A DNA stretch of 34,826 nucleotides from an uncultured bacterium. Lineage in GTDB: Bacteria; Fidelibacterota; Marinisomatia; Marinisomatales; Marinisomataceae. Below, in pieces: positions 559 to 5,477 of this stretch. Made by a program: the position numbers and the translations under genes. The stretch is from NCBI GenBank assembly GCA_905182795.1, contig CAJJCZ010000016.1, positions 1-34,826 on the forward strand, written 5' to 3'. Below the pieces are notes generated by a model. That model saw only the letters and a program-made list of their open reading frames with translations. It did not search any database and was not told the origin of the DNA. Every line of letters starts with the position of its first letter. The stretch's first letter is position 1.

Positions 559-588
559 TTGACATATATTCTGAATATTTTTTATTAT
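559..588 (+). promoter_or_regulatory. Sigma-70-type promoter for the repeat-bearing leader
   Basis: A consensus -35 box TTGACA (559-564) is separated by 18 bases from a near-consensus -10 box TATTAT (583-588). The expected transcription start, about 594-597, falls just before the first copy of the tandem structured motif (602). All three copies and the 57 bases before the PiT-like gene would then be the transcript's 5' leader, about 260 bases long. Confidence 0.7.
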
Positions 589-601
589 TCCGTGTAGTTA
601 A

Positions 602-660
602 AATCGCTTTTTAAGAGTTGAAGCAGATCTAGATGAAAAAAGAGATCTGGCCATGCGATT
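602..660 (+). repeat. Leader motif copy 1
   Basis: The outer stem is 602-607 with 655-660 (6 bp). The inner stem is 624-630 with 643-649 (7 bp, perfect). The U-tract 608-612 faces the A-rich loop 636-641, and C607 could pair with G642 to extend a pseudoknot helix. The 3' internal-loop side reads GCCAT. Confidence 0.65.
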
Positions 661-672
661 AAAAAGAGTTTT

Positions 673-726
673 ATTGCTTTTTAATAGTTGAAGCAGATTT
701 TGAAAAAAAAAATCTGGCCATGCAAT
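673..726 (+). repeat. Leader motif copy 2
   Basis: The outer stem is 673-677 with 722-726 (ATTGC/GCAAT). The inner stem is 694-700 with 710-716 (CAGATTT/AAATCTG). The single-stranded parts match copy 1 almost exactly: CTTTTTAA, one variable base, AGTTGAAG, and GGCCATGC on the 3' side. Differences fall mainly in paired positions and are compensated. Confidence 0.65.
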
Positions 727-744
727 TAAATAAGTCTTAGAGGG

Positions 745-794
745 CGTTTTTAAAAGTTAAAACTAATGTTATGAAAAAATTAGGTTATACGATT
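745..794 (+). repeat. Leader motif copy 3 (diverged)
   Basis: The inner stem is completely re-sequenced but still pairs (CTAAT 763-767 with ATTAG 779-783). The U-tract 747-751, the AAAAGTTAAAA strand and the TGAAAAA loop are kept, and the 3' side is GGTTATACGATT where the other copies have GGCCATGC. The outer stem is reduced to about 3 bp (CGT/ACG). This copy may be decayed or may have different specificity. Confidence 0.55.
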
Positions 795-854
795 AAGAAC
801 ATTTGTCCTATCTGTATATCTAATTTAATTCATAAGTAAATAATAGGAAGAAAT

Positions 855-1829
855 ATGGATTTTCTTACACTTTGGTCATTACTTGGATTTTTATTTGCGG
901 TATACGCAGTTACTGCCAATGATAGTATCCAAACGCTCGGAACATATATATCATCTAATAGCGAAGTGAAGTGGTATTGGATGTTTGGATATATGGGTTC
1001 TATCTTTTTAATAACAATGTTACAAGGTTTCAATGGCGGTGATCCAGCTTTTGGAAGGCTAGATAAGTTTCCAGAAATTGAAATACAGTGGTATCATGCA
1101 GTAGCGCCATTAGTTTTAGTAGCATTGACAAGACTTAAAATACCAGTATCAACAACCTTTTTAGTGTTATCCGTTTTTGCATCATCTGTCGTAATGGAAA
1201 AAATGTTATTAAAAAGTTTTCTAGGCTATGCAGTATCTTTTGTCTTTGCTTGGGGGTCTTGGTTCTTAATTAGCAAGTACTTGTTACATGAGGGCGAAAA
1301 AGGTGAAAACAAAAATAATAATTATTGGAGAATAGCTCAATGGTTAACTACTGGTTGGCTGTGGTCAACATGGTTGAAACATGATCTAGCTAATATCATG
1401 ATATTCCTACCAAGATTCAGTACTATTGACACGGCTACATACCAAGCATTTGTTCTTGGGGTAATGCTTATAGGACTAGGATTTATGTTCTATGAACGTG
1501 GAGGAAAGATACAGGAAATTGTCTTATCAAAAACTAATACAAGATATGTTCGTTCAGCTACATTGATCGATTTAGTTTATTGTTTTGTATTATACTATTT
1601 TAAAGAAGTAAATAATATACCTATGAGTACAACATTTGTTTTTATGGGAATGTTAGCAGGTAGAGAGCTTGGAATTTGGATGTCTCTTGGATATGGAGAA
1701 TTAACATATACTAGTAGACATAAAAAGGCTATCTTCCCAATGCTATATAAAGATTTCCTTAGATTGATGCTAGGACTGATGATTAGCGTCACTCTTGCAT
1801 ATGGTATTCAATGGTATAGTGCACTTTAA
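855..1829 (+). CDS. PiT-family-like inorganic phosphate permease
   Basis: This is a 324-residue integral membrane protein, probably an ion-coupled phosphate transporter of the inner membrane. It shows the internal inverted duplication expected of PiT proteins: an 'AND...LGT' signature at residues 21-30 pairs with 'KHDLAN' at 175-180, and 'IPVSTT' at 96-101 pairs with 'IPMSTT' at 255-260. About eight to ten hydrophobic segments are visible, with a short charged loop near 145-155 (EGEKGENKNNN) between the halves. It is shorter than E. coli PitA, which fits compact bacterial relatives. An AGGAAG ribosome site at 845-850 supports the ATG at 855. It is the first gene after the triple-motif leader, and a porin and phytase-like protein follow. 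The phosphate substrate is inferred from family and neighbours; the signature is degenerate, so another anion is possible. Confidence 0.7.
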   Translation: MDFLTLWSLLGFLFAVYAVTANDSIQTLGTYISSNSEVKWYWMFGYMGSIFLITMLQGFNGGDPAFGRLDKFPEIEIQWYHAVAPLVLVALTRLKIPVSTTFLVLSVFASSVVMEKMLLKSFLGYAVSFVFAWGSWFLISKYLLHEGEKGENKNNNYWRIAQWLTTGWLWSTWLKHDLANIMIFLPRFSTIDTATYQAFVLGVMLIGLGFMFYERGGKIQEIVLSKTNTRYVRSATLIDLVYCFVLYYFKEVNNIPMSTTFVFMGMLAGRELGIWMSLGYGELTYTSRHKKAIFPMLYKDFLRLMLGLMISVTLAYGIQWYSAL

Positions 1830-3568: not shown

Positions 3569-4513
3569 ATGTTACTACATAAAAAATGGCATGTAATGCT
3601 CTTAATTGCTTTTTCAACATTAATTGCTCAAGATATTAAGGGAGAAGTTTTTTTTGATTATACTGATTCAGGCGATAGTAGTAAAGTAGACGAATTTGCT
3701 TTAAAGCGAGTTTATCTTACATTTTCAAAATCAATTTCTGATGAACTTTCAGTAACGATACAAACAGATGTAGATACTAACAGTTCGCCTAAAAATATCT
3801 ATCTTAAAAATGCAAAGGTAGATTGGAAAACACTCGATGGTAATATTGTTATTGGGTTACAAGGCATGAATATGTTCAAAGTCCAAGAGGGAAATTGGGG
3901 AAAACGATATCTTGATAAAACTATTATGGATCGTTTCAAATATTCTAGTGCAGCTGATATGGGAATAGGATATTATCATTCAAAAGATAAATTTCATGGT
4001 AGCTTATTAATGACAAATGGTGCGGGTTATAAAAAATCAGAAAATGATTCCCATAAGAAACTATCCCTACAATTTATCTATGGAAATACAAATTTATCTA
4101 AATCAGATGGATTTAATGTAGGAGCAGTTCTTTCTCATGAACCTTATGATAGAGATGGCGAAGTAGGGATTCCAGAAGAGCCAATAGGAGAACATACCAA
4201 AAAAGTATTTGGACTATTTGGTGGATATGCAAAAAATAATTTACGTGTTGGAGTAGAATGGAATCAATTAGAGGACTCTGGACTATTAGACGGAAATTAT
4301 GATAATAATCTTACTTCTGTTTATTGTACTTATGTTCTTAATCCTAAACAGACTTTAGTCGCTAAGCATGACATGGTATCAGGAAATAAAGATGCTAATT
4401 ATGCAGTAGTAGCCATGGAATTTGCCCCTACTAAAGGGTTGGTAGTTGCACCAAATGTTCGTTCTAACGATGGAACTACAATGCTTGGAGTAAATTTCCA
4501 ATTTCAATTCTAG
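3569..4513 (+). CDS. Outer-membrane beta-barrel, phosphate-selective-porin-like
   Basis: A 314-residue protein with a cleavable signal peptide (likely cut near Ala20) and alternating strand patterns ending in aromatic 'FQFQF', the usual C-terminal signal for barrel assembly. The early stretch 'FALKRVYLTFSKSISDELSVTIQTD' resembles the opening of OprO/OprP-type porins, in which a conserved R-x-Y-L-x-F strand is followed by 'sdnLs...fq.D'. It would pass phosphate, phosphoesters or other anions across the outer membrane. An AGGGGA site at 3552-3557 precedes the ATG. The phytase-like gene follows after 1 base, so the two are surely co-transcribed. General porin function is firm; the phosphate preference rests on family resemblance and neighbours. 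Confidence 0.7.
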   Translation: MLLHKKWHVMLLIAFSTLIAQDIKGEVFFDYTDSGDSSKVDEFALKRVYLTFSKSISDELSVTIQTDVDTNSSPKNIYLKNAKVDWKTLDGNIVIGLQGMNMFKVQEGNWGKRYLDKTIMDRFKYSSAADMGIGYYHSKDKFHGSLLMTNGAGYKKSENDSHKKLSLQFIYGNTNLSKSDGFNVGAVLSHEPYDRDGEVGIPEEPIGEHTKKVFGLFGGYAKNNLRVGVEWNQLEDSGLLDGNYDNNLTSVYCTYVLNPKQTLVAKHDMVSGNKDANYAVVAMEFAPTKGLVVAPNVRSNDGTTMLGVNFQFQF

Positions 4514-4514
4514 T

Positions 4515-5477
4515 ATGATGTATAGTTCTAAAAAAATGATAAGTATATTTTTTATTTCGATAGTATTGTTACTAACATCTGGTTGTCAGTCTAATAACAA
4601 AATGGTGTTGTCTGATCCATTATTTTATACCCAATCAATGCCAAATGCTGGTATTGATAGTATAGGATTTCTTATGCGAAAGCATGTTATAGTTGTAACG
4701 GGAAAAGAAGCTAATCAATTGTATGTCTATAATGCAATGAACGGAGAACTAAAACAAACAATTGAGAGACCTGATGCATACCCTAATGGCGTCAATGTGA
4801 TTAACGATGAGTTAGTTTTGATCACTGAAAGAGATACGCACCAGGTATCTGTTTTCGATACTTCAATGAAGTTTCTTGGTACTTTTGGAGCAGATATTTT
4901 GCGTCAACCCTATGGAATTACAAGCTATAAAAAATCAGATGGGATATATCAAATTTTTATCACAGATAGTTATGACTATGATACGCCGAAAACTGATAGA
5001 ATTACTTCTTTTGAACTATCTTATGATAAGGATTCATTTTCCATAATTTCTTTTGAAACATTCGGAGAAGAGGTACTTTATCAAGTAGAAAGCATTATGG
5101 TTGATTCTTCTAATAATACATTATTGGTAGCAGATGAAAATAAAGAACATTATAAAATTGCTGTGCTCGATTTAAATAGTGGTGCAAATATAGGTTCAAA
5201 GCTCCAAGACTTTATATTTTTAACAGATCCTGAAGGGATAGCACTCGTTAAAACATCTAAAAATTCTGGGTATTGGATTGCTACCGAACAGAGTAAGACA
5301 GATAATAAATTTCACTTATTTGACAGAGAATCTTTTGAATATTTAAATACATTACATTTAGAAGATATATCAAATACTGACGGCATTGCCACAGCATATA
5401 TGCATGGAAGTTGGTACTTGTATGCAGTTGACAATGATCATCGAGTTGGAGCATTTAAGCTCCCAGAAATGAACTAG
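4515..5477 (+). CDS. Beta-propeller phytase-like lipoprotein
   Basis: A 320-residue exported lipoprotein: signal peptide, then TSGC with the lipidated Cys at 24. The body is strand-rich with repeated propeller blades (for example 'QLYVYNAMNGELKQTI', 'QVSVFDTSMKFLGTFG', 'YGIT', 'LLVADENKEHYKIAVLDLN'). The C-terminal third has the order seen in 3-phytases: 'DPEGIAL', then 'GYWIATEQSKTDNKFHLFDR', then 'DTDGIAT'-like 'NTDGIAT'. Acidic loops could hold calcium. It would release phosphate from inositol phosphates or similar phosphomonoesters at the cell surface or in the periplasm. A related NHL-type binding propeller without activity is the main alternative. Start: ATG at 4515 or the adjacent 4518; a single base separates it from the porin gene. 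Confidence 0.65.
   Translation: MMYSSKKMISIFFISIVLLLTSGCQSNNKMVLSDPLFYTQSMPNAGIDSIGFLMRKHVIVVTGKEANQLYVYNAMNGELKQTIERPDAYPNGVNVINDELVLITERDTHQVSVFDTSMKFLGTFGADILRQPYGITSYKKSDGIYQIFITDSYDYDTPKTDRITSFELSYDKDSFSIISFETFGEEVLYQVESIMVDSSNNTLLVADENKEHYKIAVLDLNSGANIGSKLQDFIFLTDPEGIALVKTSKNSGYWIATEQSKTDNKFHLFDRESFEYLNTLHLEDISNTDGIATAYMHGSWYLYAVDNDHRVGAFKLPEMN

Follow-up and report, generated by a model that had tools for sequence, protein, structure and literature searches.

The 5′ leader of a transcript in the window (the whole 34,826-nucleotide stretch analyzed here, from a SAR406 genome of 0.95 Mb that is 98.5% complete) contains three tandem copies of a conserved hairpin. Conserved RNA structure with compensatory changes, a feature expected of riboswitches, is present in this leader. 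The same element is found in relatives of the same genus, and in six of the ten carrier species (G008, G009, G011, G012, G013, and G020) it lies directly 5′ of the gene of a 911-aa TonB-dependent receptor, the start codon of which falls within the third copy. The receptor gene has been lost from the window's genome, leaving a phosphate permease gene as the neighbor. We regard it as an evenly balanced proposition, resting on predicted folds, that the element is an mRNA leader with three sites and governs translation of the receptor by way of hairpin 3, in response to a ligand or RNA-binding protein.

Fold and conservation of the tandem hairpins

The promoter proposed in the sequence-only reading, TTGACA-18-TATTAT, was confirmed at 559–588. 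It is the sole promoter-like site detected in the scanned interval (380–900), and alignments give a TTGAC(A/T) box upstream of the leader in all ten species. Repeat 1 starts approximately 12 bases downstream of the promoter. The transcript should start directly 5′ of copy 1, with a predicted 5′ end at about 594–599 in the window and directly 5′ of GTTAAAATCGC in the relatives. A covariance model finds the three copies, as first read from the sequence, at 600–666 (E = 1e-13), 670–733 (E = 2e-11), and 739–800 (E = 6e-8). The repeats start at 600, 670, and 739, and the hairpin unit is about 60 nt. The pattern AGTTGAAG..GGCCATGC occurs twice in the window versus 0.00 times expected. The features are as follows.

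559..588, + strand: sigma-70-type promoter (promoter scan and alignments)
607..666, + strand: hairpin copy 1, apical stem CAGAUCU/AGAUCUG (model match 600–666, consensus fold, pair counts, free-energy minimum)
607–614 / 659–666, + strand: outer helix of copy 1, CUUUUUAA/UUAAAAAG
617–623: GUUGAAG of copy 1, opposite GGCCAUGC at 649–656
653..691, + strand: possible short upstream ORF, MRLKRVLLLFNS-stop, from the copy 1 ATG
677..733, + strand: hairpin copy 2, folded as copy 1 (model match 670–733), with GGCCAUGC at 716–723
720..740, + strand: possible short upstream ORF, MQLNKS-stop, from the copy 2 ATG
746..800, + strand: hairpin copy 3, derived (model match 739–800, alignment, free-energy minimum)
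787..817, + strand: remains of the 5′ end (~10 codons) of the TonB-dependent receptor gene that was lost (alignment with L062–L069)
855..1829, + strand: divergent PiT-type phosphate permease (putative), the first intact gene of the transcript in the window genome

Twenty distinct copies went into the RNAalifold consensus and the covariance model. The best description of each copy, on these predictions, is one long hairpin, which is the free-energy minimum in all 20. The shared fold consists of a U/A-rich outer helix, a conserved internal loop made up of GUUGAAG on one side and GGCCAUGC on the other, and a variable but paired apical stem, with GTTGAAG and GGCCATGC on opposite sides of the hairpin. 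In the consensus, the outer helix UUUAA/UUAAA is followed by a G-C/U-G step and then by the apical stem. The longer form, UUUUUAA/UUAAAAA, appears in the free-energy minimum of every copy, in some with just 5–6 of the 7 pairs, and its partner strand lies 3′ of GGCCATGC within the same copy. The first reading of the sequence took CTTTTTAA as unpaired, but its UUUUUAA pairs with UUAAAAA to form the real outer helix. The outer stem it proposed instead (AATCGC/GCGATT) pairs in only 60% of cells, and most relatives have it disrupted in copy 1, where they carry GCACTT. Its apical loop TGAAAAA is not conserved either, the relatives having TGAGAAAA, TATAAAAAA, or ACGTAAA. The inner stem holds: 97.5% of its cells are paired, and compensatory changes occur at five of its six pairs.

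The whole structure is also supported by paired changes. In a 17-pair structure, 93% of cells are paired with 35 double-change cells versus 11.7 after shuffling, and sliding the partner by at least one base reduces pairing to at most 58%. The corresponding values for a 20-pair version are 94% and 40 versus 12.6. At the outermost position, copy 1 has C-G where copy 3 has G-C. Across species, the apical stem has G-C in place of A-U in copy 1 and C-G in place of U-A in copy 2; from copy to copy, CTAAT/ATTAG replaces CAGAT/ATCTG. Few of the compensatory events are independent, and recombination of the receptor cassette may have spread some of them between species. Compared with dinucleotide shuffles, the full leader has the better fold, with z = −2.8 in G013, whose leader lies at L064 5600–5830, and z = −3.7 in the window.

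The internal loop in the free-energy minimum is UGAAG + GCCAU, and it is partly closed in copy 3 of G023. In a bulged version of the loop (G22-C55 and G25-C54), all cells pair and both pairs covary; the changes are confined to one copy 3 lineage and the energy is less favorable than that of the open 5 × 5 loop. A register between copies, in which UUAAAAAG of one copy pairs with CUUUUUAA of the next, fits copies 1 and 2 and shows one paired change there (C-G in most species, A-U in the window and G002). We rejected it as the main fold, since any tandem hairpin permits it and the flank between copies 2 and 3 does not fit; inter-copy pairing is a possible alternative fold in these predictions. 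A pseudoknot of the U-run with the A-rich apical loop was not supported, the loop being variable.

The leader is 92–100% identical among the six receptor-bearing species, where 4-fold sites are 64–90% identical in the receptor gene and 34–92% in the permease gene. In these species, conservation rises abruptly, from 0.55 to 1.00, where the leader begins. Divergence is lower in the receptor cassette than in the permease, and permease 4-fold sites alone would therefore mislead; the receptor 4-fold sites are the proper yardstick, and by them the leader is clearly more conserved than the receptor. At L062, L064–L066, L068, and L069, the receptor 4-fold sites are 64–90% identical versus 34–57% for the adjacent permease in most pairs, which suggests from sequence comparison that the cassette has been exchanged between species and has a partly recombined history. 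Same-numbered copies of different species are on average 89% identical, versus 65% for different copies in one genome, indicating that the triplication predates these species.

The element is present in 10 of the 24 species of this SAR406 (Neomarinimicrobiota) genus, that of the window and nine others, as found by pattern search and covariance model. The locus is the same in all ten carriers; nine have three copies, and in G016 a deletion follows the single copy present. None of the 221 other genomes of the phylum that were searched has the element, nor do the phages and plasmids searched; three pattern matches in viral contigs proved unrelated. The search for homologs proposed in the sequence-only reading yielded carriers with compensatory changes; in six of them the gene context differs from the one expected. 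The Rfam comparison it also proposed gave no family in Rfam 15 at the gathering threshold or at a relaxed E-value for either the window or the intact leader of a relative; the matches were chance ones, far below threshold. Its central claim, a selected tandem RNA structure, is supported by the compensatory changes, uniform fold, strong conservation, and absence of an Rfam match. A narrow literature search found no paper on regulatory RNAs of SAR406.

The receptor gene, its loss, and its neighbors

In the six receptor-bearing species, the gene order is leader, receptor, permease. The leader had been assigned to the phosphate permease, a context that turns out to be secondary. The receptor matches TIGR01782 (E = 5e-137) and has Plug, β-barrel, and CarbopepD_reg_2 domains. 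Its start codon is the ATG within GGCCATGC of copy 3 (GGAGATTAGGCC-ATG-CGA-TTA-AAA-ACA), giving an N-terminus MRLKT... followed by a signal-peptide-like stretch. The Shine-Dalgarno GGAG is located 8 nt upstream of this ATG in the 3′ arm of hairpin 3, where it is held by UUUU/GGAG apical pairs, while the AUG is in the internal loop. Among the copies, only the one that starts the gene has a Shine-Dalgarno. Such placement of both elements in hairpin 3 would make it an expression platform in the six species, a feature lost in the window.

The window, G002, and G023 lack the receptor and retain a short remnant of its first codons after copy 3; searches for the receptor gave no match in the three. 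In the window, GGCCATGC of copy 3 is changed to GGTTATAC. The Shine-Dalgarno is gone in both the window and G002, and the receptor start codon is ATA in both. Deletion of the receptor in the window's lineage made the permease the first gene of the transcript. In G016, most of the receptor was lost by a separate deletion. At the G016 locus (G016:C3; L074 and L134), what is left of the receptor behind copy 1 is its last ~106 codons, and several in-frame stops interrupt the permease next to it, so the two genes appear to be decaying together. In the permease tree, G023 groups with the receptor-bearing species, apart from the window and G002 (support 86/82, below the starred level), which suggests that the receptor was lost more than once. 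The leader variants shared by the window, G002, and G023 conversely argue for recombination or retained ancestral states.

Between the window and G002, both receptor-less, 6 of 203 leader sites differ versus 17 of 120 permease 4-fold sites (p = 0.0002), suggesting that the leader still matters in them. G002 has nevertheless suffered damage, with one broken apical pair and the copy 2 ATG changed to ACG.

Relatives with an orthologous receptor at another locus (e.g., G007, G017, G019, and G075) do not have such a leader, and the element is thus tied to this cassette and not to the receptor family. A tRNA gene (443–515 in the window) stands between a symporter gene and the leader or permease in receptor-less species. 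In G013, the symporter is directly followed by the leader with no tRNA gene between. The cassette may have arrived at, or moved to, a tRNA-adjacent site.

The link to phosphorus drawn in the sequence-only reading stays plausible from the neighboring genes (a PHO4-like permease, PhoU, and a phytase-like lipoprotein), with phosphorus as a candidate signal. The permease at 855–1829 matches PHO4 (PF01384) below the curated cut-off (E = 0.0026, 17.2 bits versus 33.7), and no Pfam or NCBIfam model matches it at cut-off. Its homolog L095 reaches 32.7 bits with PHO4 and a Pontibacter homolog gives 5e-8. The permease resembles the Pontibacter family with 44–49% identity. We take it as a probable divergent PiT branch beyond current models. 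PhoU and a histidine kinase are encoded beside the permease ortholog of G007, and the PhoU neighbor supports a PiT phosphate permease function.

Downstream of the permease in the window, a porin-like protein with no Pfam match and a phytase-like NHL lipoprotein are encoded in the same direction (3569–5477) and may be part of the same nutrient-uptake gene set. In G007, G017, G019, and G075, a phytase-like lipoprotein 35% identical to the product of the window gene at 4515–5477 follows directly behind the orthologous receptor. This gene arrangement is like that of Fjoh_1368/1367 in Flavobacterium johnsoniae, in which a phosphate-starvation-induced TonB-dependent transporter stands beside a phytase (PMC8115612). 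Genus-typical genes at L084, L092, and L125 (G075) occur in bins labeled Gammaproteobacteria, Nitrospina, and another family of the order, probably as misbinned contigs or through recent transfer.

Possible modes of action

In the proposed control of receptor translation, hairpin 3 would limit initiation at the receptor gene. A binder of the shared internal loop (an RNA-binding protein, a small molecule, or a base-pairing RNA) would occupy all three copies, and its binding would close hairpin 3. Although copies 1 and 2 lack a Shine-Dalgarno, both retain the same internal loop, which suggests that the loop is probably the part recognized. These two copies would add affinity or cooperativity and so confine switching of the receptor to a narrow range of a nutrient signal, which is most likely phosphorus-related. 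The predicted occlusion is moderate: at 37 °C the Shine-Dalgarno is 3–38% unpaired, and rearranged folds that pair one copy with another compete. In the window genome, the action of the leader on the permease would be less direct, since a separate ribosome-binding site at 845–850 serves the permease. Each carrier genome holds the element at one site, additional matches being at chance level (E ≥ 0.35), so a regulon is not indicated.

Translational operators of the CsrA or phage coat protein type are bound at the start codon by RNA-binding proteins. The SAR406 leader is like them in its repeated hairpin with a conserved loop around the start codon, but its three copies share no GGA apical loop of the CsrA type. 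It is like tandem riboswitches in repeating structured RNA domains in a single 5′ leader, and unlike them in being a small, simple hairpin with no Rfam match at one locus of one genus. Tandem sensing domains give more complex or steeper control (PMC9481103). A triple-tandem c-di-GMP riboswitch is known (PMC4759541), and the SAM-II/SAM-V tandem occurs in Pelagibacter (PMC11508383); SAM-V controls translation (PMC6061858).

A passive, RNA-thermometer-like leader is an unlikely alternative, in which hairpin 3 traps the Shine-Dalgarno and start codon until heat or passing ribosomes open it, while copies 1 and 2 only stabilize the leader. The U-run does pair with GGAG in copy 3 of the receptor-bearing species, though this pairing is absent in the window, and the layout is like that of thermometers of the cyanobacterial hsp17 and fourU type: one stem holds the Shine-Dalgarno, and the start codon lies in or beside the adjoining stem, which in hsp17 contains its AU (PMC4477652). 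The SAR406 leader differs in its three conserved copies, two of them without a Shine-Dalgarno, and its gene is not a heat-shock gene. GUUGAAG and GGCCAUGC are conserved even in the copies without a Shine-Dalgarno, and the predicted Shine-Dalgarno opening is nearly flat from 10 to 37 °C. The thermometer is weakened because its predicted opening is nearly temperature-independent and the repeated loop is left unexplained.

Equally improbable, in our estimate, is action of the leader on the transcript, by mRNA stability or by 5′-end hairpins affecting RNA polymerase. Retention of the leader in the window and G002 despite the loss of the copy 3 Shine-Dalgarno and start codon fits such action, but no intrinsic terminator was found in the leader, and the receptor-less lineage is itself damaged, as described for G002. 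Less probable still is control by upstream ORFs, with ribosomes starting at the ATG of copy 1 (12 codons) and that of copy 2 (6 codons) and termination or re-initiation setting receptor expression. The short ORFs start at both ATGs and have constant length in receptor-bearing species; however, neither start has a Shine-Dalgarno, most substitutions in the first ORF alter an amino acid with no peptide-level conservation seen, and G002 no longer has the copy 2 ATG. The lack of a Shine-Dalgarno and of conserved peptides weakens this explanation.

The short ORFs resemble the receptor N-terminus (MRLK..), and the repeat unit thus probably arose from the gene start. That the 5′ end of the gene was duplicated twice and retained by chance as inert sequence is nonetheless very doubtful, as the copies predate the species, are more conserved than the receptor 4-fold sites, and change together at paired positions. 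A DNA-level operator of three palindromic transcription-factor sites directly downstream of the promoter has the slimmest chance of all: the apical stem is an inverted repeat with a constant ~70-bp period, but G-U pairs are present, and the varying arm spacing between copies and species and the start of conservation near the predicted transcript start weaken it.

Structured leaders, tandem riboswitches, and start-codon hairpins are already known kinds. What is new about the three-site leader is that no described family matches it, that it is confined to one genus, and that it has three copies, the third built around a start codon. We propose, only tentatively, that it represents a new class of cis-regulatory RNA in SAR406, in which three cooperating aptamer- or operator-like hairpins respond to a nutrient signal, probably a phosphorus-related one, and switch receptor translation, with the receptor start codon inside the recognition loop of hairpin 3. 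A claim of a new riboswitch class would require ligand binding. The locus also warns against assigning a leader to its present neighbor gene, which here became the neighbor by deletion. SAR406 bacteria, which are uncultivated, occur in abundance in the ocean interior. If the proposal is true, the leader would be a clean natural experiment on why RNA sensors come in repeats and would give a handle on how SAR406 controls outer-membrane uptake.
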